32,987 nucleotides of DNA from Nitrospira sp. Lineage in GTDB: Bacteria > Nitrospirota > Nitrospiria > Nitrospirales > Nitrospiraceae. This document shows positions 1-23,310 of this stretch, in pieces. The stretch spans positions 1 through 32,987 of the forward strand of contig JAEURX010000058.1 of the NCBI GenBank assembly GCA_016788885.1, read 5' to 3'. The number at the start of each line of letters is the position of its first letter. Positions within the stretch are counted from its first letter, which is position 1. The translations under genes were made by a program, and so were the position numbers. Below the pieces are notes generated by a model, which had not been told where the DNA came from, ran no database searches, and saw nothing but the letters and a program-made list of their open reading frames with translations.

Positions 1-112
1 TGGAGATGATGGCATCGTCAGAGGATTCGACGATGGCGGCAAGGCGCGCCGACATGAGATCGACGGCGAGAGGGTCGGGTATCGGTGCTACGGAATCGTC
101 GTGTGGTTGCAT
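1..112 (-). CDS. PAS-domain sensor protein, N-terminal fragment
   Basis: Only the first 37 codons are inside the window; the gene continues past the left edge. The start is the ATG ending at 112, with an alternative ATG at 55. Residues 20-37 read MSARLAAIVESSDDAIIS, which is the classic opening of a PAS domain in sensor kinases and diguanylate cyclases (family knowledge: these usually continue with a phrase about what happens next in the PAS core). The output domain cannot be seen. No clear Shine-Dalgarno is visible. A palindromic promoter site (196-213) with a -10-like box (167-172) lies upstream, giving an expected leader of about 50 nt and favouring the ATG at 112. It is probably part of the same signalling locus as the hybrid kinase at 775-5505. 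Confidence 0.7.
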   Translation of the reverse strand, partial: MQPHDDSVAPIPDPLAVDLMSARLAAIVESSDDAIIS

Positions 113-166
113 GGTGATGGGCGCGTGGCGACCTGTTCATCCACGTCGCGCAGGCAATCCAGCTGT

Positions 167-364: not shown

Positions 365-778
365 CGAGCGGGTTGTGAGGACGGCCATGGTGCCGGTTCC
401 CGGTAAAGAGGTGCTGTCCAGCCGTCCGCCCATCGCCGCTGTTCGTTCCCGGATACCGAAGCGTCCGACTTGGGAAGGCGCCGTGCCTCGTTGTCGCGGC
501 GGACTTGGCGCGAACCCGCAATCGTTGTCTTCCATGAGGATCTAACGCCGGTCCTCGTCCGTGAAGGCGAAGGCGATCCGTGTTTCTGCGGCCGCAGCAT
601 GGTCCACCACATTGAACAGCAGTTCCCGCACGGACTGAAACAGCAGCACTGTTTGGTCTTCGGGAAGCGTCGGCTCGTCGCTGTCTTCCTGCACGGTCAT
701 CGTGAGCCCGTGACGCTGCCTCTGGATTCCACGCGCGCCGGTGATCGGCGGATTCGGCCGGGGTTGAACGCGCGTCAT
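365..778 (-). pseudogene. Decayed tail of a histidine kinase (HATPase_c), internal stop
   Basis: The minus-strand frame gives LPEDQTVLLFQSVRELLFNVV, then after a TAG at 542-544 continues in the same frame as GRFGIRERTAAMGGRLDSTSLPGTGT. Both pieces align with the second ATPase domain of the neighbouring hybrid kinase (LPEDQAVLLFQSIRELLMNVV and GLFSIRERMHALGGRLDLCSRPGHGT). The conserved DxGxGF box is degraded and the part between PPI and the LPEDQ motif is shortened. This is a remnant of a paralogous NarL-class kinase C-terminus, broken by one in-frame stop plus sequence decay. Its upstream end abuts the stop codon of the intact kinase. It is not expected to be functional. Confidence 0.7.
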
Positions 779-3700
779 CGAGTACCCAGCTGGGCAGTCC
801 GGGCGGTGAGGATGGTATGGTAGAGGTCTTCAACGGCGGCTTCCTTGTTGAGAAACGCAATGGCGCCGGCTTCACGCATGGCCATGCTGACATGGGCGGC
901 GTTTTGCACGGACAGGGCGATCACGATCGTGTTGGGGAGGACCTCTTTGATCAGCCTCGTCGCTTCGAGGCCGTCCATCCCTGGCATGTTCACATCCATA
1001 AGGACGACGTCTGGCCGAAGTTGGGTGGCGAGGGCTACGGCTTCCTGCCCATTGGCCGCTTCCCCTGCGACCGCGATGTCTTGGTACCCGGCCAGGAGTC
1101 CGCAGAGCCCCTGCCGTACCATGGCATGGTCGTCGGCAATAAGGACTCGAACAGCAGGACTCTGGACGTGAGGATGGCCATTGAGTGGAGGCGGTGAGGC
1201 CGGATGTCCTTTCTGTGAGCGGAGGGCAGCGCGTCCTGCAGGTTCGATCGTGTTCGGCAGCGACGCGGACGATTCACGCGTGGCGAGGAGCGGCATGACC
1301 AGCGTGGCAGTGGTGCCGTGACCGGGTCGGGAGCAGAGGTCCAACCGTCCCCCCAACGCGTGCATCCGCTCCCGGATGCTGAAGAGACCGAATCCGGGGG
1401 CAGTGCCATGTGTGGGAAGGGTGGATGACTCCGTATGCAGAAAGCCGACACCACCGTCCGTCACAGTGATCTCCAGCTGTCCCTCATCCACCGTAATGGT
1501 GATCCCTGCGTGCTTCGTGCCGGCATGTTTCACCACATTCATCAGCAGCTCGCGGATTGATTGGAAGAGCAGCACGGCCTGGTCTTCCGGGAGGGAAAGG
1601 TGGGCCGGTGAAAAGTCCAGGGACACGTGCAGGTCCCGGTGAAGCATCTGTTCCGCCAACCATCGCAATGCCATCGGCAGGCCGAATTCCTTGAGAATCG
1701 GTGGGCTGAGTTGGGCGACTAATGTTCTGGTATAGGTCAAGGCCTGATCCGTGACCTCCTGCAAATCATGCAAGGTCCGGTTCAGCGCGGGAGTCATCGG
1801 GTGCCGCATAGCTTGCGCCAGACGAATCCGGCTCAAGGCCAACAACTGGGCCAGATAATCGTGCAACTCCGTGGCGACATGTTGCCGCTCGCGTTGACCG
1901 GCCAGATTCAATTCGGTCGCCAGGGCGCGTAAGTGCTCACGCGACTGTGTCAGTTCGAGCGTGCGTGCGGCCACGCGATGTTCCAGTTCTGCGGTCACGC
2001 GCTGCAACGCGTCTTCTGCCCGTTTCCGTTCCGTGATGTCATAATTGATGCCGATCATGCGGACGGGATGCCCCTGTTCATTTCTCACGGTCTCGCCCTG
2101 TCCGCAGAGCCAATGGATGGTGCCGTCTGGGTGGACGACGCGAAATTCCGACGCGAAGAGGCCGGTCCTATAGGCGCGTCTCGCGGCTTCTTGCACCTGC
2201 TCCACATCGTCGGGATGGAGCGCGTTGTAGAATTCCTCCGCACGACGCAGCGGACGGTCCATCGTCCGTCCGAAGAGTTCGCATTGCCGTGCGTCCCACG
2301 TCGTGTCGCCGGTGTGAAGGTTCAGATCCCAGGCGCCCATCCGGCCGGCGGACATGGCCAATCGCAGGCGTTCCTCGCTGGTGCGCAGGACCTCATCCGC
2401 CTGGGCTCGCGCGATGGCCAAGGCCAATGTCGTGGCCAGGGCCTGCGACCATTCGGTCTCCTCGTCGCTCAATCGTCTGGGCCGGTCGAAGCACAACATG
2501 AACATGCCGAGCAATCGGCCGCCATCGGTGAGGGGGATGAATACCAAGGCCTCTATGCCTTCCCCTCGGACCGTAGCCTGCAATTCCGGGCTCAGGTTGC
2601 AGCGGGCAACATTTTCAATGACGAGTGGGGGCGGGTCCTTCTGATCCGTTGGCCAGGGGGAATGGCCCTCAACCGCCTGCTGATGGGCCTCGGACAAGCC
2701 CTGCGAGGCTGTGAAGCGCATCACTCCCTCACAGTCGAGGAGCAGGATCGCGGCTCGGTTGACCGAGATGGCTTCCGTCATGGCCTGCAAGGCCAGTTCG
2801 TAAAGGCGCGCCGTCGGTTCGGCGCGATTCACTGCGTCGGCCAATTCGTAGAGCCATTGTTGGCGGCGATTGACGATTCGTAACAGCGCCTCCTGCCGTT
2901 TGCGATCGCTGATGTCGAACCCGACGGCCAACAGGGAGCGCAGTTCCCCGCGTTCTCTCACGCCACCGACACTGACACTCATCCAGAGGGTGGTACCGTC
3001 CTTCCGCCGGTAGCGTTTCTCGATGACGAAATCCGGGCCGCCTTCCACGAGTTGTTGGAGCTGTTCGAGATCCCGTGGAAGGTCTTCGGGATCCGTCACC
3101 TCCTGCATGCGCATGCCGAGCAAGTCGTGTTCCTGATACCCCAAGAGTTCGCACAATCGTTGGTTGACGAATTGGAATCGGCCGCTCAGGTCGGTCTGGG
3201 ACACTGTCGCCGTGGCTTGGTTGACGATCGCCCGCAGCCGCGCTTCGCTGGCGGCGATTTGTCCTTCGGCTTCCCGGCGAATACGGCTCAGATTCACATG
3301 GGCGGCCACGCGCGCCAACAATTCACGGCCGCTGAACGGTTTGACCAGATAATCATCCGCACCCTGCTCGAGGCCCTTGATGCAAGGCTCCTCGCCGGCG
3401 CGGGCGGAAAGCAGAATGATGGGAATGGTGTGCAGGGCAGGATCGGCCCGCAGCGTCTTGGCCAAGCCGATGCCGTCAAGCTGCGGCATCATAATGTCGC
3501 TCAGTAGAACATCCGGGCGACGGCGTTGAATCTCGGACAAGGCGGCGAGTCCGTCGCCGACGGTCACGACGTCATAGTGTTCACGCAGGAGGCGCATCAT
3601 GTAGCGACGCATGTCGGCATTGTCGTCGGCAACGAGAATGTGCGCCCGCGCGTGTGTCGATTGGGGCGGGACAGGAATCTCGGGCTGCAAGACCTCCGAC

Positions 3701-5505
3701 TCGTGGTCGGGCAACCACTGCAACGCTTCTTCGAGATACGGTGAGGCGTCCGGCGCATGGGGGAATGCGGAGGCATCTTGGGTGACCTGTTCCGGAGGCA
3801 GATGCTTTGTGCCCCAAGGAAGCGTGATGAAGAAGCTGCTGCCTTCGTCGAGGCGGCTCTCCACGCGTACCGTCCCTCCATGCAACTGCACGACCTCCTG
3901 CACGAGCGCGAGCCCGATTCCACTGCCTTCATGTGTTCGGCTTTGACGGTTCTGCACTCGATAGAATCGTTGAAACAGCCGCGGGAGGGCCTCAGGGGGA
4001 ATACCGACGCCCGTATCACGAACCACCAGCATCACGCCATCCTGGTCGTGCCGAATCGACAGTGCAATGTGACCGTGAAACGTATGTTTAAATGCGTTGC
4101 TGAGCAGGTTGAGGACCACCTTTTCCCACAGCGTTCGATCGACATAGACCGGTTCCGGCAGGGGGGGGCAGTCGATGTGGAAGGTCAGGCCGGCCCGTTC
4201 GAGAGCGGAGCGAAACCCGCTGGCCAGGTCTGCGCTATAGGCGGCCAGATCGGTCGGCTGATACCGGGCTTCCGTGCGCCCGGCCTCGATGCGTGAGAAG
4301 TCCAGTAGGATATTGACCAGCTTCAGCAGGCGCACACTATTCCGGTGGGCCACATCCAGGTTGGTATTGTGAGGCCGTTCACGACGCTCCTCCTCCAGGG
4401 GGCCCAGCATGAGCGTCAGTGGAGTGCGAAACTCGTGGCTGACGTTGTTGAAGAACTCCGTCTTCGCCCGGTCTAACTCCGCCAAGGCCTCTGCCCGTCG
4501 AGCTTCTGATCGATAGGCTCGAGCGTTCGTGAGGGCAATGGCGATCTGAGACGCGACCATCCCGAAAAAGTGCCGGTAGTCCCCGTCTAGCTGCCGACGC
4601 GGGCTGACACCTACGATGAGAAAGACTCCTCCGTCCTCGTCGTGAGATTGGGTGACCGGCAGGATGAGGGCCTGTCTGGTGGGTTCAGGCCAGGCTCCTC
4701 CGGGGAGCAGGCCGAACCGGTCGACCAGGTCGTCCACGACGAGGGGGGTACTGTGTCGACACGCGGATCCGAACGGCCAGTCCCGCGCCGTTTCAGCGTC
4801 ATGGAGCTCCGCGGTGTCTTGCGCGGCGGGATGGTCGTGTCCCAGCCCGACGGCTCCGGCGAGTGTGGCCCGCTGACTGTGCCGATCCAGGCGATACAGC
4901 AAGGCGAAGGGAAGATCGGCGGGGTCAGTGGCCAGTGATTCCATGGCGAACGCACACGCGTCCTCTTCATGTTGGGCAGAGCCTGACAGGGAGGCGAGTT
5001 CGCGTAACAGGCGGGTGCGTCGATCGTTCAAGACGCGGTAGGTGGTCTCCTGGACGATATTCAAAATCCCTTCGACCTGTCCGTTCTGACCCCGGATGGG
5101 ATTCAGGCTGTAGTCGAAGTAACATTCCTCCGTATAGCCGAACCGTTGCATGGGTAACAGTTCGTCGCTTCTCCAGTTGGCTTCTCCTGTGGTGAGGACA
5201 CTGCGAAAATAGTCTTGAATCGTCGGCCACAATTCCGGCCAGACGTCTCTGGCCGGCTTGCCGAACGCCCAGGGATGTTTTCCGCCGACGATCGGGCGCC
5301 AGGCGTCGTTATAGAGGAGCCAGGAGTCGGCACCCCAATAGATGGCCATCGGAGTTTGGGCGGTGAGACAGACGCTCAAGGTTGAGACGAGTGCGGCAGG
5401 CCATTGTTCGATCGCACCGAGTGAAGTTGTGGACCAATCGAAGGCCCGGATACGTTCTCCCATTTCGCTTCCGGTCAGCCAACTGGACTGGTGGGGTGCA
5501 TTCAT
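775..5505 (-). CDS. Double hybrid sensor histidine kinase / response regulator
   Basis: A 1576-residue cytoplasmic-looking signalling protein with no obvious membrane segments. Domain order: N-terminal PAS (about 15-155), GAF (165-325), HisKA with H-box SHEFRTP (His357), HATPase with DTGVGIP and GSGIGLAL, a receiver with LLSDIMMP (Asp670), PAS (about 755-865), GAF (880-1040), PAS/PAC (1050-1170), a HisKA_3 dimerisation segment with ELHDYLAQ (His1215), a second HATPase (NVVKHAG, GGVGF, GFGLFSIRER), and a C-terminal NarL-like receiver with LMDVNMP (Asp1504) but no DNA-binding domain. Thus one OmpR/EnvZ-class kinase and one NarL-class kinase are fused, each followed by its own receiver. The frame extends to a GTG at 5628, but that codon lies inside the palindromic operator (5627-5644) and upstream of the predicted transcription start, so the ATG at 5505 was chosen. 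No output domain is present; phosphate presumably passes to another regulator. Confidence 0.93.
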   Translation of the reverse strand: MNAPHQSSWLTGSEMGERIRAFDWSTTSLGAIEQWPAALVSTLSVCLTAQTPMAIYWGADSWLLYNDAWRPIVGGKHPWAFGKPARDVWPELWPTIQDYFRSVLTTGEANWRSDELLPMQRFGYTEECYFDYSLNPIRGQNGQVEGILNIVQETTYRVLNDRRTRLLRELASLSGSAQHEEDACAFAMESLATDPADLPFALLYRLDRHSQRATLAGAVGLGHDHPAAQDTAELHDAETARDWPFGSACRHSTPLVVDDLVDRFGLLPGGAWPEPTRQALILPVTQSHDEDGGVFLIVGVSPRRQLDGDYRHFFGMVASQIAIALTNARAYRSEARRAEALAELDRAKTEFFNNVSHEFRTPLTLMLGPLEEERRERPHNTNLDVAHRNSVRLLKLVNILLDFSRIEAGRTEARYQPTDLAAYSADLASGFRSALERAGLTFHIDCPPLPEPVYVDRTLWEKVVLNLLSNAFKHTFHGHIALSIRHDQDGVMLVVRDTGVGIPPEALPRLFQRFYRVQNRQSRTHEGSGIGLALVQEVVQLHGGTVRVESRLDEGSSFFITLPWGTKHLPPEQVTQDASAFPHAPDASPYLEEALQWLPDHESEVLQPEIPVPPQSTHARAHILVADDNADMRRYMMRLLREHYDVVTVGDGLAALSEIQRRRPDVLLSDIMMPQLDGIGLAKTLRADPALHTIPIILLSARAGEEPCIKGLEQGADDYLVKPFSGRELLARVAAHVNLSRIRREAEGQIAASEARLRAIVNQATATVSQTDLSGRFQFVNQRLCELLGYQEHDLLGMRMQEVTDPEDLPRDLEQLQQLVEGGPDFVIEKRYRRKDGTTLWMSVSVGGVRERGELRSLLAVGFDISDRKRQEALLRIVNRRQQWLYELADAVNRAEPTARLYELALQAMTEAISVNRAAILLLDCEGVMRFTASQGLSEAHQQAVEGHSPWPTDQKDPPPLVIENVARCNLSPELQATVRGEGIEALVFIPLTDGGRLLGMFMLCFDRPRRLSDEETEWSQALATTLALAIARAQADEVLRTSEERLRLAMSAGRMGAWDLNLHTGDTTWDARQCELFGRTMDRPLRRAEEFYNALHPDDVEQVQEAARRAYRTGLFASEFRVVHPDGTIHWLCGQGETVRNEQGHPVRMIGINYDITERKRAEDALQRVTAELEHRVAARTLELTQSREHLRALATELNLAGQRERQHVATELHDYLAQLLALSRIRLAQAMRHPMTPALNRTLHDLQEVTDQALTYTRTLVAQLSPPILKEFGLPMALRWLAEQMLHRDLHVSLDFSPAHLSLPEDQAVLLFQSIRELLMNVVKHAGTKHAGITITVDEGQLEITVTDGGVGFLHTESSTLPTHGTAPGFGLFSIRERMHALGGRLDLCSRPGHGTTATLVMPLLATRESSASLPNTIEPAGRAALRSQKGHPASPPPLNGHPHVQSPAVRVLIADDHAMVRQGLCGLLAGYQDIAVAGEAANGQEAVALATQLRPDVVLMDVNMPGMDGLEATRLIKEVLPNTIVIALSVQNAAHVSMAMREAGAIAFLNKEAAVEDLYHTILTARTAQLGTR

Positions 5506-5597
5506 CGTAGGGCTCGGGACAACGGATTGATGACTGCCGGTGTCGGTCGGCAAAAGGGGAATGGACAGCTGCCGCGCATGTGCAGGAATCGTTGAAA

Positions 5598-5644
5598 GTT
5601 GTAGCACCGTGGGTGGTCTTCGCCCCACTAGTGAAATCCCTAGT
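5598..5644 (-). promoter_or_regulatory. Palindromic activator-type promoter, site 2
   Basis: Operator ACTAGTGAAATCCCTAGT at 5627-5644, then 23 bp, then TACAAC (5598-5603) on the minus strand. Transcription is predicted to begin near 5591 and reach the hybrid kinase ATG at 5505. The site fills the short gap after the proline-rich protein gene. Confidence 0.6.
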
Positions 5645-5672: not shown

Positions 5673-6149
5673 TCAATGTGAGGGGAGGTGATTCCGAGGG
5701 CCTGGGGCGGGCAGTTCCGGACCGGCTTCCTCCAGCACACCGATTGCGCGTTGGGCCGAGTCCAGTCTGAGTGTGAGACGTTCCCCGATCGACAGATTTC
5801 GAAAGAGGTCAGGATTTGGAATGGTAAACGACACCGTTGTGCCCAGGTCGGTGGTGAGCCGACCCGTCCGCTGCTCGAGATTCATGGTCACCAGCAAGCC
5901 GGATACTGTCTCCGATGCACGTCCATCCCGATCGGCGGTCAGATGAAGAACGAACGATTGGAGCCCCCCGTCGCGCGGGATGGACGGCGGTCTCGTGGGA
6001 GGAAGGGGAACCGGGTCCGATGGTTTCGGCGGGACGGTCGGACCTGGGCCCGGTTGCGGAACGGGTACCGGCACCTCCGACGCGCCGGCGGTCCATCCTC
6101 CGAGCAATGCGGTGCCCAAGACGAGTATTGCGAGGTCATGGCGTCGCAT
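5673..6149 (-). CDS. Secreted proline-rich hypothetical protein
   Basis: 158 residues. The ATG at 6149 is preceded by a strong GGGAGG ribosome-binding site; longer forms of the frame run into the upstream gene and are rejected. Residues 1-24 (MRRHDLAILVLGTALLGGWT) form a signal peptide with a likely AGA-S cleavage area, followed by a Pro-rich linker (about 27-60, PVPVPQPGPGP type) and a compact region (about 65-145) of likely beta structure (LTTDLGTTVSFTIPNPDLF). The family was not recognised. It lies 35 bp downstream of the Cys-rich copper-storage gene in the same direction and is probably cotranscribed from the promoter at 6621-6666, so an envelope role in metal or stress response is a reasonable guess only. 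Confidence 0.75.
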   Translation of the reverse strand: MRRHDLAILVLGTALLGGWTAGASEVPVPVPQPGPGPTVPPKPSDPVPLPPTRPPSIPRDGGLQSFVLHLTADRDGRASETVSGLLVTMNLEQRTGRLTTDLGTTVSFTIPNPDLFRNLSIGERLTLRLDSAQRAIGVLEEAGPELPAPGPRNHLPSH

Positions 6150-6184: not shown

Positions 6185-6580
6185 TCAGGCATTGCCGGTA
6201 GACGCCGCGGGGATGGTTTCCGCAACCATTTGGTGACAGAGCGCCGCGCATTGACGACATTCTTTCGCGCATTCTCCACACGGTGCATGCTGAGGGGTCT
6301 GCTGCTCGCAGAGTCCGGCACAGAGCTCACAGACTTCGGCACAGAGCGCGCACAGACGGATGGAAAACGCCGAATTCCGCCCCATCCATTGCGCCGCCAA
6401 CAGACAGATGTCTGCACAGTCGCGACACAGTCTGATGCAGCGGATGATCGAGTCATTCGCCTCGTCATGAGGCATCCCGACCATCTCGTCCGCACAGGCA
6501 TTGCAGAAGTGTGCGCAGTCCATGCACGTTTGGATGCATTCGATGGTGTGTTGCTCCAAGGAATGAGTCACGGATGCCAT
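6185..6580 (-). CDS. Four-helix-bundle copper-binding protein (Csp3/DUF326 type)
   Basis: 131 residues with 19 cysteines, mostly in CxxxC and CxxC spacings along predicted helices (for example CIQTCMDCAHFCNAC near the N-terminus and CGECAKECRQCAALC near the C-terminus). This is the hallmark of the DUF326/Csp family, whose members store many Cu(I) ions inside a four-helix bundle. No signal peptide is present, so it is the cytosolic type. The ATG at 6580 follows an AGGGAGG ribosome-binding site. The gene is first in a two-gene unit with the secreted proline-rich protein and carries palindromic promoter site 3. Confidence 0.9.
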   Translation of the reverse strand: MASVTHSLEQHTIECIQTCMDCAHFCNACADEMVGMPHDEANDSIIRCIRLCRDCADICLLAAQWMGRNSAFSIRLCALCAEVCELCAGLCEQQTPQHAPCGECAKECRQCAALCHQMVAETIPAASTGNA

Positions 6581-6620: not shown

Positions 6621-6666
6621 ACGATACGCTCCGGTGCGTGGAAGGCCTACTAGGAAAACCGCTCGT
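6621..6666 (-). promoter_or_regulatory. Palindromic activator-type promoter, site 3
   Basis: Operator ACTAGGAAAACCGCTCGT at 6649-6666, then 22 bp, then TATCGT (6621-6626) on the minus strand. The predicted start is near 6614, about 34 nt before the copper-storage ATG. It stands 32 bp (about three helical turns) from site 4, which faces the other way. Confidence 0.55.
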
Positions 6667-6680
6667 TCGTTCTCGTCCCG

Positions 6681-6727
6681 ACTAGGGGTCTCACTAGCTC
6701 AGGAGGCACTCGAGATCCGTGTACTGT
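6681..6727 (+). promoter_or_regulatory. Palindromic activator-type promoter, site 4
   Basis: Operator ACTAGGGGTCTCACTAGC at 6681-6698, then 23 bp, then TACTGT (6722-6727) on the plus strand. The predicted start of transcription lies only a few bases before the PLD gene ATG at 6738, which has no Shine-Dalgarno, so a leaderless or nearly leaderless message is likely. Confidence 0.55.
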
Positions 6728-10845: not shown

Positions 10846-11415
10846 TCACAAGATGATCGGCCTGGTCGTCTCCGCTCGCGAGGTCTCTCGAGAGTGGGTT
10901 GGGAGGAACAGACGCCGGGTCTCCACGCGACGTGTCTTCTTCCGCGGCAGAGCCGGCCTGTTCAATCGGGACGGGAAAAGACTTGCGTGTTCTTGAGGTT
11001 ACCATGGAGCAACAACCGCCATTTCTCTATGCGGTACCTCCCTGGATGCGTCAAGGCTGTCGGCCTGTGGGGGAGGCGATGGAGACGTCGCCGACCTGAT
11101 TCGGTGTGGGGGCATGAGAGCAAAACTCAAACTGGGGATAGTCCGAGTGGGCAGTGATGACGTCCTGGTGCATCATTGCCTCGAACTCGCGTGCCTGGGA
11201 GAAGATGTCTCGATCTCTCTGGGAAGGGACCGTCAGCTTCGGGTTGGTCAAGATTGAGACATTCGTCAAGCCGGAGCCTCTGACACCTGCGTCTGGTGGG
11301 AGAAGCTATCTTCTGCCGAACCGGGTCTCCCCCGCCTATCAGCGGCAGGCGCGGCGGAGCAGTCTCTGAATAGTGAAGGAGGGTTGCTCTGGAAGGCAAT
11401 AATCACAAGGATGTG
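10846..11415. other. Gene-poor stretch with decayed coding fragments
   Basis: About 570 bases between the small lipoprotein and treZ. No intact gene is supported. A short frame at 11004-11099 lacks a recognisable product, and 11205-11369 holds a Ku N-terminus remnant. No strong terminator or palindromic promoter site was found here. Confidence 0.5.
11205..11369 (+). pseudogene. Remnant of Ku (NHEJ) protein N-terminus
   Basis: From the ATG at 11205 the product begins MSRSLWEGTVSFGLVKI, which matches the opening of bacterial Ku (typically MARxLWxGxISFGLVNIPV), the DNA-end-binding protein of non-homologous end joining. After about 18 residues the similarity stops and the frame ends at 11369, against roughly 260-300 residues for a real Ku. 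A GGGAG sequence lies just before the ATG. The rest of Ku and any ligD partner are absent here, so this is a truncated remnant rather than a gene. Confidence 0.6.
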
Positions 11416-13314
11416 ATGCCGGAAGCCATTTCTAGGAGTGTCTCGAGGCCACCGCGTTGGCGTGGGATATCGCTGGGGGCCACCGTGGTGCCCGACGGCG
11501 TGCGCTTCTGTTGTTGGGCCCCGGAACGGACTCAGGTGGAAGTCCTGTTCGGTGCGGGGCCTACGTCCCATCCGATGACACAGGACCACAACGGGTATTG
11601 GTCTGCGGACGTGTTCGGCGCAAGGGCAGGAATGACCTACCGGTATCGGCTGGATGGAGGAGACGTCTATCCTGATCCCTGTTCCCGTTATCAGCCCAGT
11701 GGTCCCCACGGGCCGTCGCTGATCGTCGATCCTGCCGCCTATCGCTGGCAGGACGAAGAGTGGGTCGGTGTAACCATGCATGGTCAGGTGATCTATGAAC
11801 TTCACGTGGGCACGTTCACCCCGGAAGGCACCTTCGACGCCGCCGCCGCGCAAGTCGCGGCGTTGAAAGACCTCGGGATCACCGTCATTGAGGTGATGCC
11901 GGTGGCTGAATGTCCCGGTCGATGGAATTGGGGCTATGACGGGGTGGGGCTGTATGCGCCGTCCCACGTCTATGGCGACCCGGAAGCGTTCAAACGGTTC
12001 GTGGATACGGCGCATCGGCTGGGGCTCGGCGTCATTCTGGACGTGGTCTATAACCATCTGGGGCCGGACGGGAATTACCTGCCGGCATTCACGTCCTGCT
12101 ACTTCACCGATCGATATTCGAATGAGTGGGGCCAGGCCATGAACTTCGATGGGGCTGGTTCGCACGGTGTCCGCGACTTTGTCATCCAGAATGCCTGCTA
12201 TTGGGTAGATGAATTCCATCTCGACGGATTGCGCTTGGACGCTGTGCACGCCGTGCATGATGCCAGCCCGCGGCATGTGTTGGCGGAATTGTCTCTTGCG
12301 GCAAGGGCGGCCGCCGGCGAGAGAGCAATTATCTTGGTGGCAGAATGCGAGGCCCAATGGATCCATTCCATCCAGCCGATCGAGCAGGGCGGGTGGGGAT
12401 TGGACGCGGTCTGGAGCGAGGACTTTCACCATACGACCCGCGTGGCGGCGACCGGTCGCCGTGAAGGGTACTATTCCGACTACCTGGGTACACCACAGGA
12501 ACTTCTTTCCTGTGTGAAACGCTCGTTTCTCTTTCAAGGGCAGCGGGATCAGTGGCAGGGGAAATCCCGAGGGAGCGTGGTGGGACGGGAGCCGGCCAGC
12601 GGGTTTGTGTTTTTTCTCCAGAATCATGACCAGGTCGCCAATCAATTGCGCGGTGGTCGATTGCATGACAAGACAAGCCCGGGACTCGTCCGCGTCCTCA
12701 CGGCCTTCTTGCTTCTTTCCCCGCAGACTCCGCTCCTGTTTATGGGGCAAGAGTTCGGTGCCTCCTCGCCGTTTCTCTTTTTTGCCGATTTTCCGCCGGG
12801 TGAGTTGGCGCAGGCGATTCATCGAGGCAGGAAGGCGCTCTTAGCGCGATTTCTCAGCGCATCGTCCTTCGAGGCTCAGGCGAGCATTCCGGATCCTTGC
12901 GACCCGCGTGTCTTCGAGGATTCGAAGCTGGACTTGTCGGAGCGGGATCGCCACCGGCACGTCTATGTGCTGCATCGCGAGCTTCTCAGGCTACGGCGCG
13001 AAGATCCGGTGATTGCCCGGCAGGCCAGAGACCAACTCGATGGGGCGGTACTCGGACCGCATGCGTTTGTTGTCCGCTATGCGGGGAGCGACGGAGATGA
13101 CCGGCTGCTGCTCCTGAACCTCGGACCTGATTATGACTATCGGCCTGCGCCTGAGCCTCTGCTCGCGCCTCCGGTGGGGCGAAGGTGGTCGTTGTTCTGG
13201 TCCAGCGATGAACCTCGGTACGGAGGCCCCGGCGTCATCAGTCCTTTGAGCCCAGAGGGCTGGCGTCTCCCGGCCGAATCAGCCGTACTGTACCAGACCG
13301 AACCGGAAGGATAG
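11416..13314 (+). CDS. treZ: Malto-oligosyltrehalose trehalohydrolase
   Basis: About 632 residues, typical for TreZ (EC 3.2.1.141), a GH13 enzyme that releases trehalose from the reducing end of maltooligosyltrehalose. An N-terminal early-set domain (about 15-100, VRFCCWAPERTQVEVLF) precedes the TIM barrel. Catalytic features: DVVYNHLGPDGNYL, nucleophile Asp in DGLRLDAVHA (about 275), acid/base Glu in VAECEA (about 310) and transition-state Asp in QNHDQVAN (about 405). A frame start at GTG 11413 is possible, but the AAGGA box fits the ATG at 11416 better. The expected partner TreY is not adjacent; glgC lies 15 kb away. Remnants of other genes flank it on both sides. Confidence 0.93.
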   Translation: MPEAISRSVSRPPRWRGISLGATVVPDGVRFCCWAPERTQVEVLFGAGPTSHPMTQDHNGYWSADVFGARAGMTYRYRLDGGDVYPDPCSRYQPSGPHGPSLIVDPAAYRWQDEEWVGVTMHGQVIYELHVGTFTPEGTFDAAAAQVAALKDLGITVIEVMPVAECPGRWNWGYDGVGLYAPSHVYGDPEAFKRFVDTAHRLGLGVILDVVYNHLGPDGNYLPAFTSCYFTDRYSNEWGQAMNFDGAGSHGVRDFVIQNACYWVDEFHLDGLRLDAVHAVHDASPRHVLAELSLAARAAAGERAIILVAECEAQWIHSIQPIEQGGWGLDAVWSEDFHHTTRVAATGRREGYYSDYLGTPQELLSCVKRSFLFQGQRDQWQGKSRGSVVGREPASGFVFFLQNHDQVANQLRGGRLHDKTSPGLVRVLTAFLLLSPQTPLLFMGQEFGASSPFLFFADFPPGELAQAIHRGRKALLARFLSASSFEAQASIPDPCDPRVFEDSKLDLSERDRHRHVYVLHRELLRLRREDPVIARQARDQLDGAVLGPHAFVVRYAGSDGDDRLLLLNLGPDYDYRPAPEPLLAPPVGRRWSLFWSSDEPRYGGPGVISPLSPEGWRLPAESAVLYQTEPEG

Positions 13315-19633: not shown

Positions 19634-19679
19634 AGCCTACCGGCGGCTACACCATTGCTGTACTGGGCAAAGCCCTAGT
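19634..19679 (-). promoter_or_regulatory. Palindromic activator-type promoter, site 7
   Basis: Operator ACTGGGCAAAGCCCTAGT at 19662-19679 (11 of 12 arm positions), then 22 bp, then TAGGCT (19634-19639) on the minus strand, driving the ElaB-like / holin-X-like / DUF883 unit. A GCTAGC half-site sequence also overlaps the expected transcription start (19623-19628). Confidence 0.6.
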
Positions 19680-20086: not shown

Positions 20087-20497
20087 TTACCCGGGTGGTG
20101 GTTGAAGGTGTGGGAAGAGGTCTCGCTCCTCTGTCAGAAAGTGCACGTGGACCGTCTGCATCATGTCTTCGAAGAATTCGTCCAGCGCCTGGTCGTCGTC
20201 AGTTTCTGATCCGCGAAGTTCCTCCATCATAGCTCTCACCTCGTCATGCTCCCGCAAGACGTGTGCGACCAGCTCATGCTTCCGGTCGGCGTGCGGTGGG
20301 ACACGAGCAGTCAAGAGGGCCTCTTCTTTGCGAAAGTGCTCTTCCAGCAACTCGAGGATCTGATCCACCGTGGCTCGACGAGAATCCTGGCTGATTGCGA
20401 GATACAGTTGAAACAGCGCGAGAATCTTCCGATGGTCATCGCGCAACGTGCGGATGCCGGTCTCGTTGGTACCTGGTTTCAACTGTGTGTTTGCCAT
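20087..20497 (-). CDS. Hemerythrin HHE domain protein
   Basis: 136 residues. The ATG at 20497 follows AGGGAGG. The four-helix HHE pattern is complete: DDHRKI (about 20), EEHFRKEE (about 53), HELVAHVLREHDEV (about 73-86) and HVHFLTEERDLFPHL (about 117-131) provide the His, Glu and Asp ligands of a di-iron site. Such proteins bind O2, NO or iron and act in oxidative or nitrosative stress. Cytoplasmic, single gene, with promoter site 8 upstream. Confidence 0.9.
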   Translation of the reverse strand: MANTQLKPGTNETGIRTLRDDHRKILALFQLYLAISQDSRRATVDQILELLEEHFRKEEALLTARVPPHADRKHELVAHVLREHDEVRAMMEELRGSETDDDQALDEFFEDMMQTVHVHFLTEERDLFPHLQPPPG

Positions 20498-21569: not shown

Positions 21570-21614
21570 AGGATAACAGGGGAACGCGAATCTTCCACTA
21601 GGCATGACCCTAGT
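21570..21614 (-). promoter_or_regulatory. Palindromic activator-type promoter, site 9 (perfect palindrome)
   Basis: Operator ACTAGGCATGACCCTAGT at 21597-21614 has exact inverted arms ACTAGG/CCTAGT. After 21 bp on the minus strand comes TATCCT (21570-21575), then about 80 nt of leader before the YtxH ATG. Confidence 0.65.
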
Positions 21615-22104: not shown

Positions 22105-23310
22105 TCAAAACAGACTTCTGCTGATTTCCCCGGACGGCGAACTCTCGTTCCCGCTGTTGTCGTAGGCGGTGACGGAGAACCAATAGGTCGAGCCGAGCGG
22201 CAATGTCAGTCGTGTTGAGGTGACATTGCCGACGTCGAACGCCTGGGATCGGACGCCTGAGGCGGTGCCGACGTAGACGCGATACCCTCTAAGATCCGCT
22301 TCGGTATTGGCATTCCACGTCACCGTGACTGTACCGGTCGCCGTCCCGGATGGCGGGGGCGGTGGTGGCGTGGTGCTTCCGGTCGGCGAAGGGGGCGGTG
22401 GTGGCGGCGGAGTTGTGGTGCCGCCGGCCAAGACGGAGAGGGAGACCGGGATGCGCAAGGTTTGAGAGCCGTTGGGCCCGCTCTCCACAATATAGACGAC
22501 GCCGGAATAGCTGCCGACATTCATGCTCGCGGTGTTGACGGAGACGGTAATGGGGTCAAGCTCCGTGGTGATGGTCTGGGTGCTGCCGTAGGGTGGGTTC
22601 AGGCCAACCCACGATTGGTTGGTACTGATGTAATAGCTGCTCTGCTGCGTGCTGGACTTCTGCAGATTGAACACCCCGGTGGCCGTGTTGCCTTTTGCCG
22701 CTGTGAGCGATAGCCCCGCAGGAAACGCTTGCAGCAAGGGCGTCAGTGATCCGGTTGGTGCCGGCGGGGGCGGCGTGGTCGAAGGCGGCGGGGGTGGCGT
22801 GGCTGCGGGGGGCGGCGGCGGTGGGGGCGGGGGTGGCGTCGAACCGGCCGCGGTGACTGTGGCCGTGACCGGAATACGCCAGGTCGTCGAGACGCCTGGC
22901 CCGGATTGACCGATATAGATCGTGCCGGAATAGGTTCCGGCGGAGAGCCCCATGGTTGCGGTATTGACGGTGACGGTCAGGGTATCCGTCTCCGTGGAAA
23001 TCGTTTGCGTACTCCCGTACGGCGGATTCAGCCAGATCCAGGACTGATTGGCGCTGATGAAATAGGTGTGCTGCGCCGTGTCCGATTTTTTCAAACTGAG
23101 AGTGCCGGTTGCCGTGCCTCCTTGTGCAACGGTGAGGGAGACTGCACTCGGGCTGAATTGAATATTCTGCGCGAGGGCCTGAGACCCTCCGGCGATCAGG
23201 TCACAGAACCACAACATCACGATCAGCATCACGATCACGAAATGACCCGACGCATGTCGCCGCACGATGCGTGGTGGATGCTGATTGGGTGTGGTGCGCT
23301 GTGACGTCAT
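22105..23310 (-). CDS. Secreted protein with two BACON-like repeats and an FN3 domain
   Basis: 401 residues. The ATG at 23310 is preceded by AGGGAG. Residues 20-48 form a signal or anchor (FVIVMLIVMLWFCDLIAGG, then ALAQ). Two similar domains (about 49-155 and 188-290) share FSPSAVSLTVAQGGTATGTL / FPAGLSLTAAKGNTATGVF and WLNPPYGSTQTI / GLNPPYGSTQTI, a BACON-like beta-sandwich pattern. Pro-rich linkers (runs of about 10 prolines) separate them from a C-terminal fibronectin type III domain (VTVTWNANTEADLRGYRVYV, about 320-400). It probably works at the cell surface or periplasm in binding. The proline codons make a G-rich plus strand at about 22755-22850. Followed by the hairpin at 22002-22038. 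Confidence 0.85.
   Translation of the reverse strand: MTSQRTTPNQHPPRIVRRHASGHFVIVMLIVMLWFCDLIAGGSQALAQNIQFSPSAVSLTVAQGGTATGTLSLKKSDTAQHTYFISANQSWIWLNPPYGSTQTISTETDTLTVTVNTATMGLSAGTYSGTIYIGQSGPGVSTTWRIPVTATVTAAGSTPPPPPPPPPPAATPPPPPSTTPPPPAPTGSLTPLLQAFPAGLSLTAAKGNTATGVFNLQKSSTQQSSYYISTNQSWVGLNPPYGSTQTITTELDPITVSVNTASMNVGSYSGVVYIVESGPNGSQTLRIPVSLSVLAGGTTTPPPPPPPSPTGSTTPPPPPPSGTATGTVTVTWNANTEADLRGYRVYVGTASGVRSQAFDVGNVTSTRLTLPLGSTYWFSVTAYDNSGNESSPSGEISRSLF

Follow-up and report, generated by a model that had tools for sequence, protein, structure and literature searches.

Why would two complete histidine kinases of different classes be joined in one bacterial protein, and what would such a protein control? 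In Nitrospira, major players in nitrite oxidation and in complete ammonia oxidation, the question is raised by gene A, a 1576-residue dual hybrid histidine kinase encoded on the minus strand at positions 775-5505 of a 32,987-nucleotide Nitrospira sp. contig (JAEURX010000058.1, assembly GCA_016788885.1). This whole stretch is the window referred to below (contig C58 of genome G000). Here, we find that gene A is an authentic and conserved gene behind a conserved promoter palindrome, and argue that it is probably one sensor of a local stress-response circuit. A full-text literature search gave no report on this locus, its palindrome or such a Nitrospira stress circuit among the matches listed.

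The reading frame of gene A begins with an ATG at 5505 and could be extended to a GTG start (775-5628, minus strand, 1617 amino acids). We accept 1576 residues as its length because an ATG matching 5505 is present in 11/11 genomes of an upstream-region alignment. A first-pass annotation, made from the letters of this stretch, had given no strand for the gene; the plus strand of 775-5505 contains many in-frame stops. Its central claim, two complete kinases of the HisKA and HisKA_3 classes in one chain, was borne out by a Pfam domain search, which together with the single frame gives the layout PAS-GAF-HisKA-HATPase-REC followed by PAS-GAF-PAS-HisKA_3-HATPase-REC. The first module consists of a HisKA domain with phospho-acceptor His357 (PF00512, residues 347-409, positions 4279-4467), an HATPase_c domain (PF02518, residues 457-563, 3817-4137) and the receiver REC1 with Asp670 (PF00072, residues 623-733, 3307-3639). 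The second consists of a HisKA_3 domain (PF07730, residues 1206-1269, 1699-1890) whose His1215 lies in an HDxxxQ motif invariant in 10/10 orthologues, an HATPase domain (PF13581 plus a second PF02518 stretch, residues 1305-1384, 1354-1593) and the receiver REC2 with Asp1504 (a second PF00072 stretch, about residues 1449-1565, 811-1161), all on the minus strand. His357, Asp670, His1215 and Asp1504 each stand where the first-pass annotation had placed them. Pfam thus reports two HATPase_c and two Response_reg stretches, and the whole-protein family scores exceed the curated cut-offs. Gene A has two units of DHp plus ATPase in a single frame, and a receiver comes after each of them; it is an HK1RR1HK2RR2 or transmitter-receiver-transmitter-receiver (TRTR) protein.

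Two further details of the first-pass annotation stood in part. Sensory blocks of PAS and GAF types do lie before and between the kinases, but they number five rather than four: three PAS and two GAF domains (three PAS_4 and two GAF_2 stretches in Pfam, and BLAST segments), with the N-terminal PAS the least certain. The final receiver indeed carries no DNA-binding domain, as the chain stops 11 residues past REC2 and contains no helix-turn-helix. We reject a special loss of that domain because the single HisKA_3 kinases scanned at this locus (E, F and G, introduced below) also end 5-15 residues past their receivers; its absence is normal for HisKA_3 kinases here. A membrane span is not expected in gene A, where the Kyte-Doolittle mean of every 19-residue stretch stays at or below 1.5.

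To place gene A among its relatives we used a sample of 29 genomes of the genus, including G000. At E<=1e-200, 14 of the 29 contain a match, and in 12 of these 14 it is gene A itself: full length in ten (G000, G003, G004, G005, G007, G011, G015, G017, G023 and G027), cut by a contig end in G024 and halved in G012. G022 and G026 hold only a paralogous dual kinase at this threshold. All 23 catalytic positions checked (the catalytic His, N and G boxes, Asp and Lys of both modules) are identical in 10/10 full-length orthologues, and conservation is poor in the two linkers (invariant fraction 0.16 and 0.00). When G000 is compared with G003, the ratio of non-synonymous to synonymous substitution (dN/dS) comes to 0.12 in the first half and 0.14 in the second; pairs with G000 give 0.12-0.19. 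The first-pass annotation had considered that an assembly or sequencing error might have joined two neighbouring kinase genes, and the contig does end 775 bases from gene A. Such a mis-join is ruled out by the identical single open frame in nine further Nitrospira genomes and by paralogues of similar architecture, leaving it a next to negligible chance.

Upstream of gene A lies a palindrome of the form ACTAG-N8-CTAGT, ACTAGGGGTTTCACTAGTGGGG (5627-5644, 121 bp before the ATG), and a -10-like box, TGCTACA (5600-5606, minus strand), begins 20 nt after it. The palindrome precedes gene A in 11/11 genomes, perfect in eight and with one mismatch to ACTAG-N8-CTAGT in three, and stands as an island, ACTAGGGRTTTCACYAGTGGGG, amid poorly alignable upstream sequence; such a site was present in 28 of 5500 base-shuffled upstream regions (base-composition shuffles). 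A TGSTACA box begins 19-20 nt after the palindrome in 9/11 genomes and TGCTACT is found in the other two. By eye, -10-like boxes follow at similar distance the sites at kinase genes F and G, at the neighbouring gene U3, at a ferritin-like gene and at paralogous dual kinases. Such a distance between site and -10 box is a usual layout where an activator site covers the -35 region, and the promoter of gene A fits that expectation. Because the palindrome is found before gene A in all 11 genomes, the palindrome regulon very probably includes gene A as a target. The first-pass annotation had proposed it as an input to that regulon, a role that gene neighbourhood and co-occurrence make likely in addition.

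Exact inverted repeats and direct-repeat families in the window yielded nothing plainly regulatory, and the signal surfaced through CTAG. This tetranucleotide is depleted in the window (23 observed against 117 expected from base composition), and N8-spaced pairs of it recur before genes. Genome-wide, CTAG-N8-CTAG occurs 22 times, compared with 3, 4, 4 and 3 times for the N6, N7, N9 and N10 spacings, and the N8 spacing in this genome is genuine.

Downstream, the genes follow a conserved order: the dual kinase A, the triple-receiver hybrid kinase B, the CheR gene C, the CheB gene D, then E and F. Pfam domains of operon proteins from L013 and L009 identify B as a GAF-HisKA hybrid kinase with three receivers; C as CheR; D as a CheB methylesterase domain protein; E as a REC-PAS-HisKA_3-REC kinase; and F as a PAS-HisKA_3-REC kinase. 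Unlike gene A, B has hydrophobic stretches. In the frames listed for L009-L013 (identical to records G005, G007, G017, G027 and G015), the stop of A and the start of B share four bases. The run A-B-C-D-E is complete in 9/11 regions examined, CheR and CheB being found by tblastn in 9/11, and F follows the operon in every region except that of G017, whose fetched stretch showed no F. By Pfam, the five L013 operon proteins scanned include no CheA, CheW or chemoreceptor (MCP), the rest of the genomes not having been searched for them.

In the genome of the window, genes two to five of this run are reduced to scraps of about 0.35 kb. A remnant of B (736-778, minus strand) retains the start codon overlapping the stop of A (ATGA) and about 14 codons, and a remnant of E (415-725, minus strand) is a piece of the ATPase region with an in-frame stop; at their joint about 5.7 kb is absent relative to G003, and most of the end of E is also gone. 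The start of F lies at 1-136 (minus strand), cut by the contig end, with a palindrome-like site before it (196-213, one mismatch to ACTAG-N8-CTAGT). Its part in the window begins at 2-136, and its residues 58-668 form the end of contig C15. Because F is split between the two contigs and G003 carries the entire order on one contig, C58 and C15 are very probably neighbours.

The same genes are missing from G012. A query with B at E<=1e-60 retrieves it from G003, G005 and G023 but gives nothing in G000 or G012. The operon CheR (81-83% identical in G003, G005 and G023) is absent from both G000 and G012, whose only CheR proteins are others at 25-35%, and the only two CheB proteins of G000 are distant (36% and 28%). 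In G012 (locus L119), B to E are again scraps, and gene A itself lacks residues about 57-730 in frame, which puts the second kinase on the original start. Through this natural in-frame deletion (L119, 12247-15062) only one kinase, of the HisKA_3 class, is left of the dual kinase, with the promoter palindrome still in place. G000 and G012 come out as sisters with 0.905 FastTree support and 78 bootstrap in IQ-TREE; a tree of the second half instead pairs G000 with G003 (support 85), and the pieces of B to E that are retained differ between the two genomes. The losses may go back to one shared first deletion or be two separate events. The second half of gene A (778-2865) is also faster in both genomes without the CheR/CheB cassette, relative to G003: 62 unique residues in G000 against 23 in G003 (61 against 25 in a second alignment), and 71 unique changes in G012 against 27 in G003. 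The first half, with 45 unique residues in G000 and 35 in G003, has no matching acceleration.

HisKA_3 kinases usually pair with NarL/LuxR regulators. On contig C15 we found two convergent REC-GerE (NarL-type) regulators, RR1 and RR2, that are 93-95% identical in G003 and G012. Their neighbours include an Fe/Mn superoxide dismutase and a CBM48/alpha-amylase (glucan-enzyme) protein and, judged by eye, ferritin-like, CsbD-like, trehalose-synthase-like and PRC-barrel-like proteins; palindrome-like sites also precede neighbouring kinase and stress-type genes. We propose a stress function because of the superoxide dismutase, ferritin-like, CsbD-like and trehalose-synthase-like neighbours, and such a function for the locus is at this stage a guess from gene content. 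The window itself encodes an alpha-amylase-type protein with CBM48 and DUF3459 domains (11413-13314, plus strand), so that, together with the C15 genes, this island may well include a trehalose or glycogen branch.

These features lead us to an overall model, which we regard as the best explanation and to which we give a probability of roughly 45%. The gene A product would be a cytosolic-looking, multi-input sensor kinase of transmitter-receiver-transmitter-receiver order. Its second, HisKA_3 module would act as the output kinase for a NarL/LuxR-type regulator, with RR1 and RR2 the likeliest partners. The regulator would bind ACTAG-N8-CTAGT beside the -10 box and activate gene A, kinases F and G and the stress-type genes, with positive feedback on gene A through its own output regulator. 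An upstream control stage would consist of the HisKA module and REC1; it would work either through allostery or through a TodS-like transfer of phosphate to His1215, and would gather PAS and GAF signals and, in most genomes examined, signals from the B-CheR-CheB-E cassette; REC2 may serve as a phosphate sink or feedback receiver. Which regulator binds, the order of phosphotransfer and the stress function are the parts that we infer. In favour of the model, G012 keeps the second module, the start codon and the palindrome, with the first module deleted in frame.

Co-occurrence links RR2 to both the palindrome and gene A. At E<=1e-60, RR2 is present in 11 of the 118 genomes of a phylum sample, and the exact palindrome is found in nine of these 11 against one of the 107 without RR2. 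Within the family the split is 9/11 against 1/12 (Fisher 6e-4), compared with 8/11 against 5/12 for a reversed-pattern control (Fisher 0.21). Within the genus, where RR2 is present in 20 of 29 genomes, gene A accompanies it in 12 of 20 and is found in none of the nine that lack it (Fisher 0.003).

Several observations weigh against the model. The RR2 correlation is confounded by common descent, its positives all falling in one family; two genomes with RR2 have no exact palindrome and one without RR2 has four; three of the nine genus genomes without RR2 are less than 90% complete; and RR1 and RR2 are candidate partners by neighbourhood and co-occurrence. At up to one mismatch, ACTAGG-N6-CCTAGT has 11 sites genome-wide, seven of them on C15 and C58, which make up 1.8% of the genome (binomial 2e-10); this clustering speaks for the model, but the test is post hoc since these contigs were chosen for their sites. 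At up to two mismatches chance should yield many sites. Against its reversed-pattern control the motif shows no enrichment (22 versus 309, 58 versus 322 and 36 versus 1026), and we attribute the excess of reversed-pattern matches to CTAG depletion; we therefore relied on spacing controls and footprinting instead. Finally, the faster second half of gene A in G000 and G012 sits awkwardly with a constant output module.

Other accounts of the tandem arrangement can be given. In a strict TodS-type linear relay, phosphate would pass from His357 to Asp670 to His1215 and on to a NarL-type regulator (or to Asp1504), and the second kinase would be mainly a phosphotransfer domain. TodS has the same transmitter-receiver-transmitter order, with a His1-Asp1-His2-Asp2 relay onto TodT (PMC4321377), and second transmitters have been suggested to stand in for Hpt domains (PMC3018481). 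We nevertheless consider this possible but unlikely, as the second module of gene A retains a complete ATPase and the checked catalytic residues, G012 retains that module without the first, and the final receiver is lacking in TodS, classed as TRT-R (PMC3018481). The opposite idea, implied by the first-pass annotation, is that two independent kinases share one chain, each with its own receiver and outside partner. Each module is complete, the linkers are unconserved, first halves like that of gene A are joined to other second kinases elsewhere, and the second module survives alone in G012. Yet the fusion has been kept in ten genomes with low dN/dS in both halves in the tested pairs, which suggests that coupling of the two kinases matters and makes full independence rather doubtful. 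It is improbable that gene A in this strain is an orphan on its way out after the loss of its operon. This strain has lost B, the operon CheR and CheB and the larger part of E, and the second half is faster than in G003, but the open frame is complete, the catalytic residues are intact, dN/dS against G003 is 0.12-0.14, and the palindrome promoter, F and G are all kept.

The output-kinase model can be extended, tentatively, to the control centre of a general-stress response specific to Nitrospira. As many as five hybrid kinases (A, B, E, F and G), with the dual kinase first, would feed the two NarL-type regulators. These may control superoxide dismutase, ferritin-like, CsbD-like, glucan/trehalose, envelope and kinase genes from ACTAG-N8-CTAGT sites that cover the -35 region, and the CheR/CheB cassette, which could be lost as a unit, would tune the kinases without a chemoreceptor. 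If true, this would name the sensors, candidate regulators and DNA site of a Nitrospira stress circuit. The natural deletions, of the first module in G012 and of the CheR/CheB cassette in two genomes, make the question of tandem-kinase fusion testable.

To trace the fusion more widely, we sought proteins with both DHp types in a single frame by segment BLAST among 80 public loci, and found them in the five Nitrospira records L009-L013 and in Nitrospirales L076. Bacteroidota and Verrucomicrobiota proteins combine a similar first half with a second HisKA kinase: Pfam places five of six proteins in this class, the sixth, L076, having HisKA_3, and BLAST segments alone add more. A first-half tree places gene A beside Brevifollis (99/97), a Verrucomicrobium with HisKA in its second kinase. 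On this tree the label "second kinase is HisKA" must change at least three times; ten rows carry it, five by Pfam and the remainder by BLAST segments. As Brevifollis and other relatives carry a second HisKA, the first module has had various second kinases in evolution. The second-half tree, built after removal of three duplicate rows, is long-branched and gives no decision between a single and a multiple origin of the fusion. Paralogous dual kinases with the same HisKA/HisKA_3 pairing occur in G012, G022, G026 and G027, with first halves 47-53% identical (Pfam check on three of five). This second Nitrospira family (L125, L126, L127, L128 and L129) has open reading frames of 1669-1973 codons. 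A palindrome with at most one mismatch lies within about 250 bp upstream in L128 and L129 and a two-mismatch one in L125, with none that near upstream in L126 and L127.

On the upstream side, gene A is followed in the window by U4 and U3. U4 (5673-6149, minus strand; neighbour in 10/11 regions) is a small protein with a secretion signal and proline-rich stretch by eye; it has no NCBIfam match, and its longer frame has no Pfam match. U3 (6185-6580, minus strand; 11/11 regions) is a Cys-rich protein of 131 amino acids with a weak match, 21.2 bits against a cut-off of 100, to the Csp1 model of four-helix copper-storage proteins, and a metal link beside gene A is possible. Two palindrome-like sites with one mismatch each (6649-6666 and 6681-6698) lie between U3 and a PLD/VTT gene. 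Further palindromes in the window stand at 21597-21614 (a perfect ACTAGG-N6-CCTAGT) and 19662-19679, near a hemerythrin gene (20087-20497) and a gene for a proline-rich protein (22105-23310) whose BACON match is weak and does not reach the cut-off.

How does gene A compare with known systems? The first-pass annotation called its design uncommon, and the published counts agree, at 51 hybrid kinases with two transmitters among 4650 (PMC3018481) and 90 HK1RR1HK2RR2 proteins in 60 organisms (PMC4558063). Single two-kinase cases are described in myxobacteria (PMC4603909) and as DhkD in Dictyostelium (PMC3783435); from these counts and cases, the two-kinase, two-receiver design is rare but known. 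DhkD differs from gene A in being eukaryotic and membrane-bound, with a RegA-dependent mutant phenotype (PMC3783435). TodS of Pseudomonas putida shares the kinase-receiver-kinase order, PAS domains and lack of a transmembrane region, and its two kinases work as one relay within one chain (PMC4321377); its output is the separate DNA-binding response regulator TodT, and a separate regulator is presumed for gene A. TodS lacks a second receiver, where gene A continues past HK2 into REC2 with Asp1504, and gene A also has GAF domains; the relay order is established for TodS and hypothetical for gene A.

For the operon, the Che3 pathway of Rhodospirillum centenum (CheS3/CheA3) likewise combines hybrid kinases with CheR and CheB in a non-motility role (PMC3868531), and differs in having CheA, CheW and an MCP, none of which is among the five L013 proteins scanned. 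The Che-type pair itself, CheR plus CheB within the operon, is gone from G000 and G012. Plasmids of Novosphingobium (L183) and Agrobacterium (L184) in the Alphaproteobacteria carry a cassette whose annotated order is the same as B-C-D-E, with no dual kinase annotated directly upstream in what are incomplete plasmid gene tables. We know of no functional study of this hybrid kinase-CheR-CheB-REC-kinase cassette. Like other TRTR kinases, gene A alternates two transmitters with two receivers in one chain; it differs in that its transmitters belong to different classes and that it heads a CheR/CheB-containing kinase cluster behind a palindrome, a case absent from the available sections of the published TRTR counts (PMC3018481, PMC4558063). 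What is new here is the context of gene A: the conserved kinase/CheR/CheB run, its decay, and the promoter palindrome.

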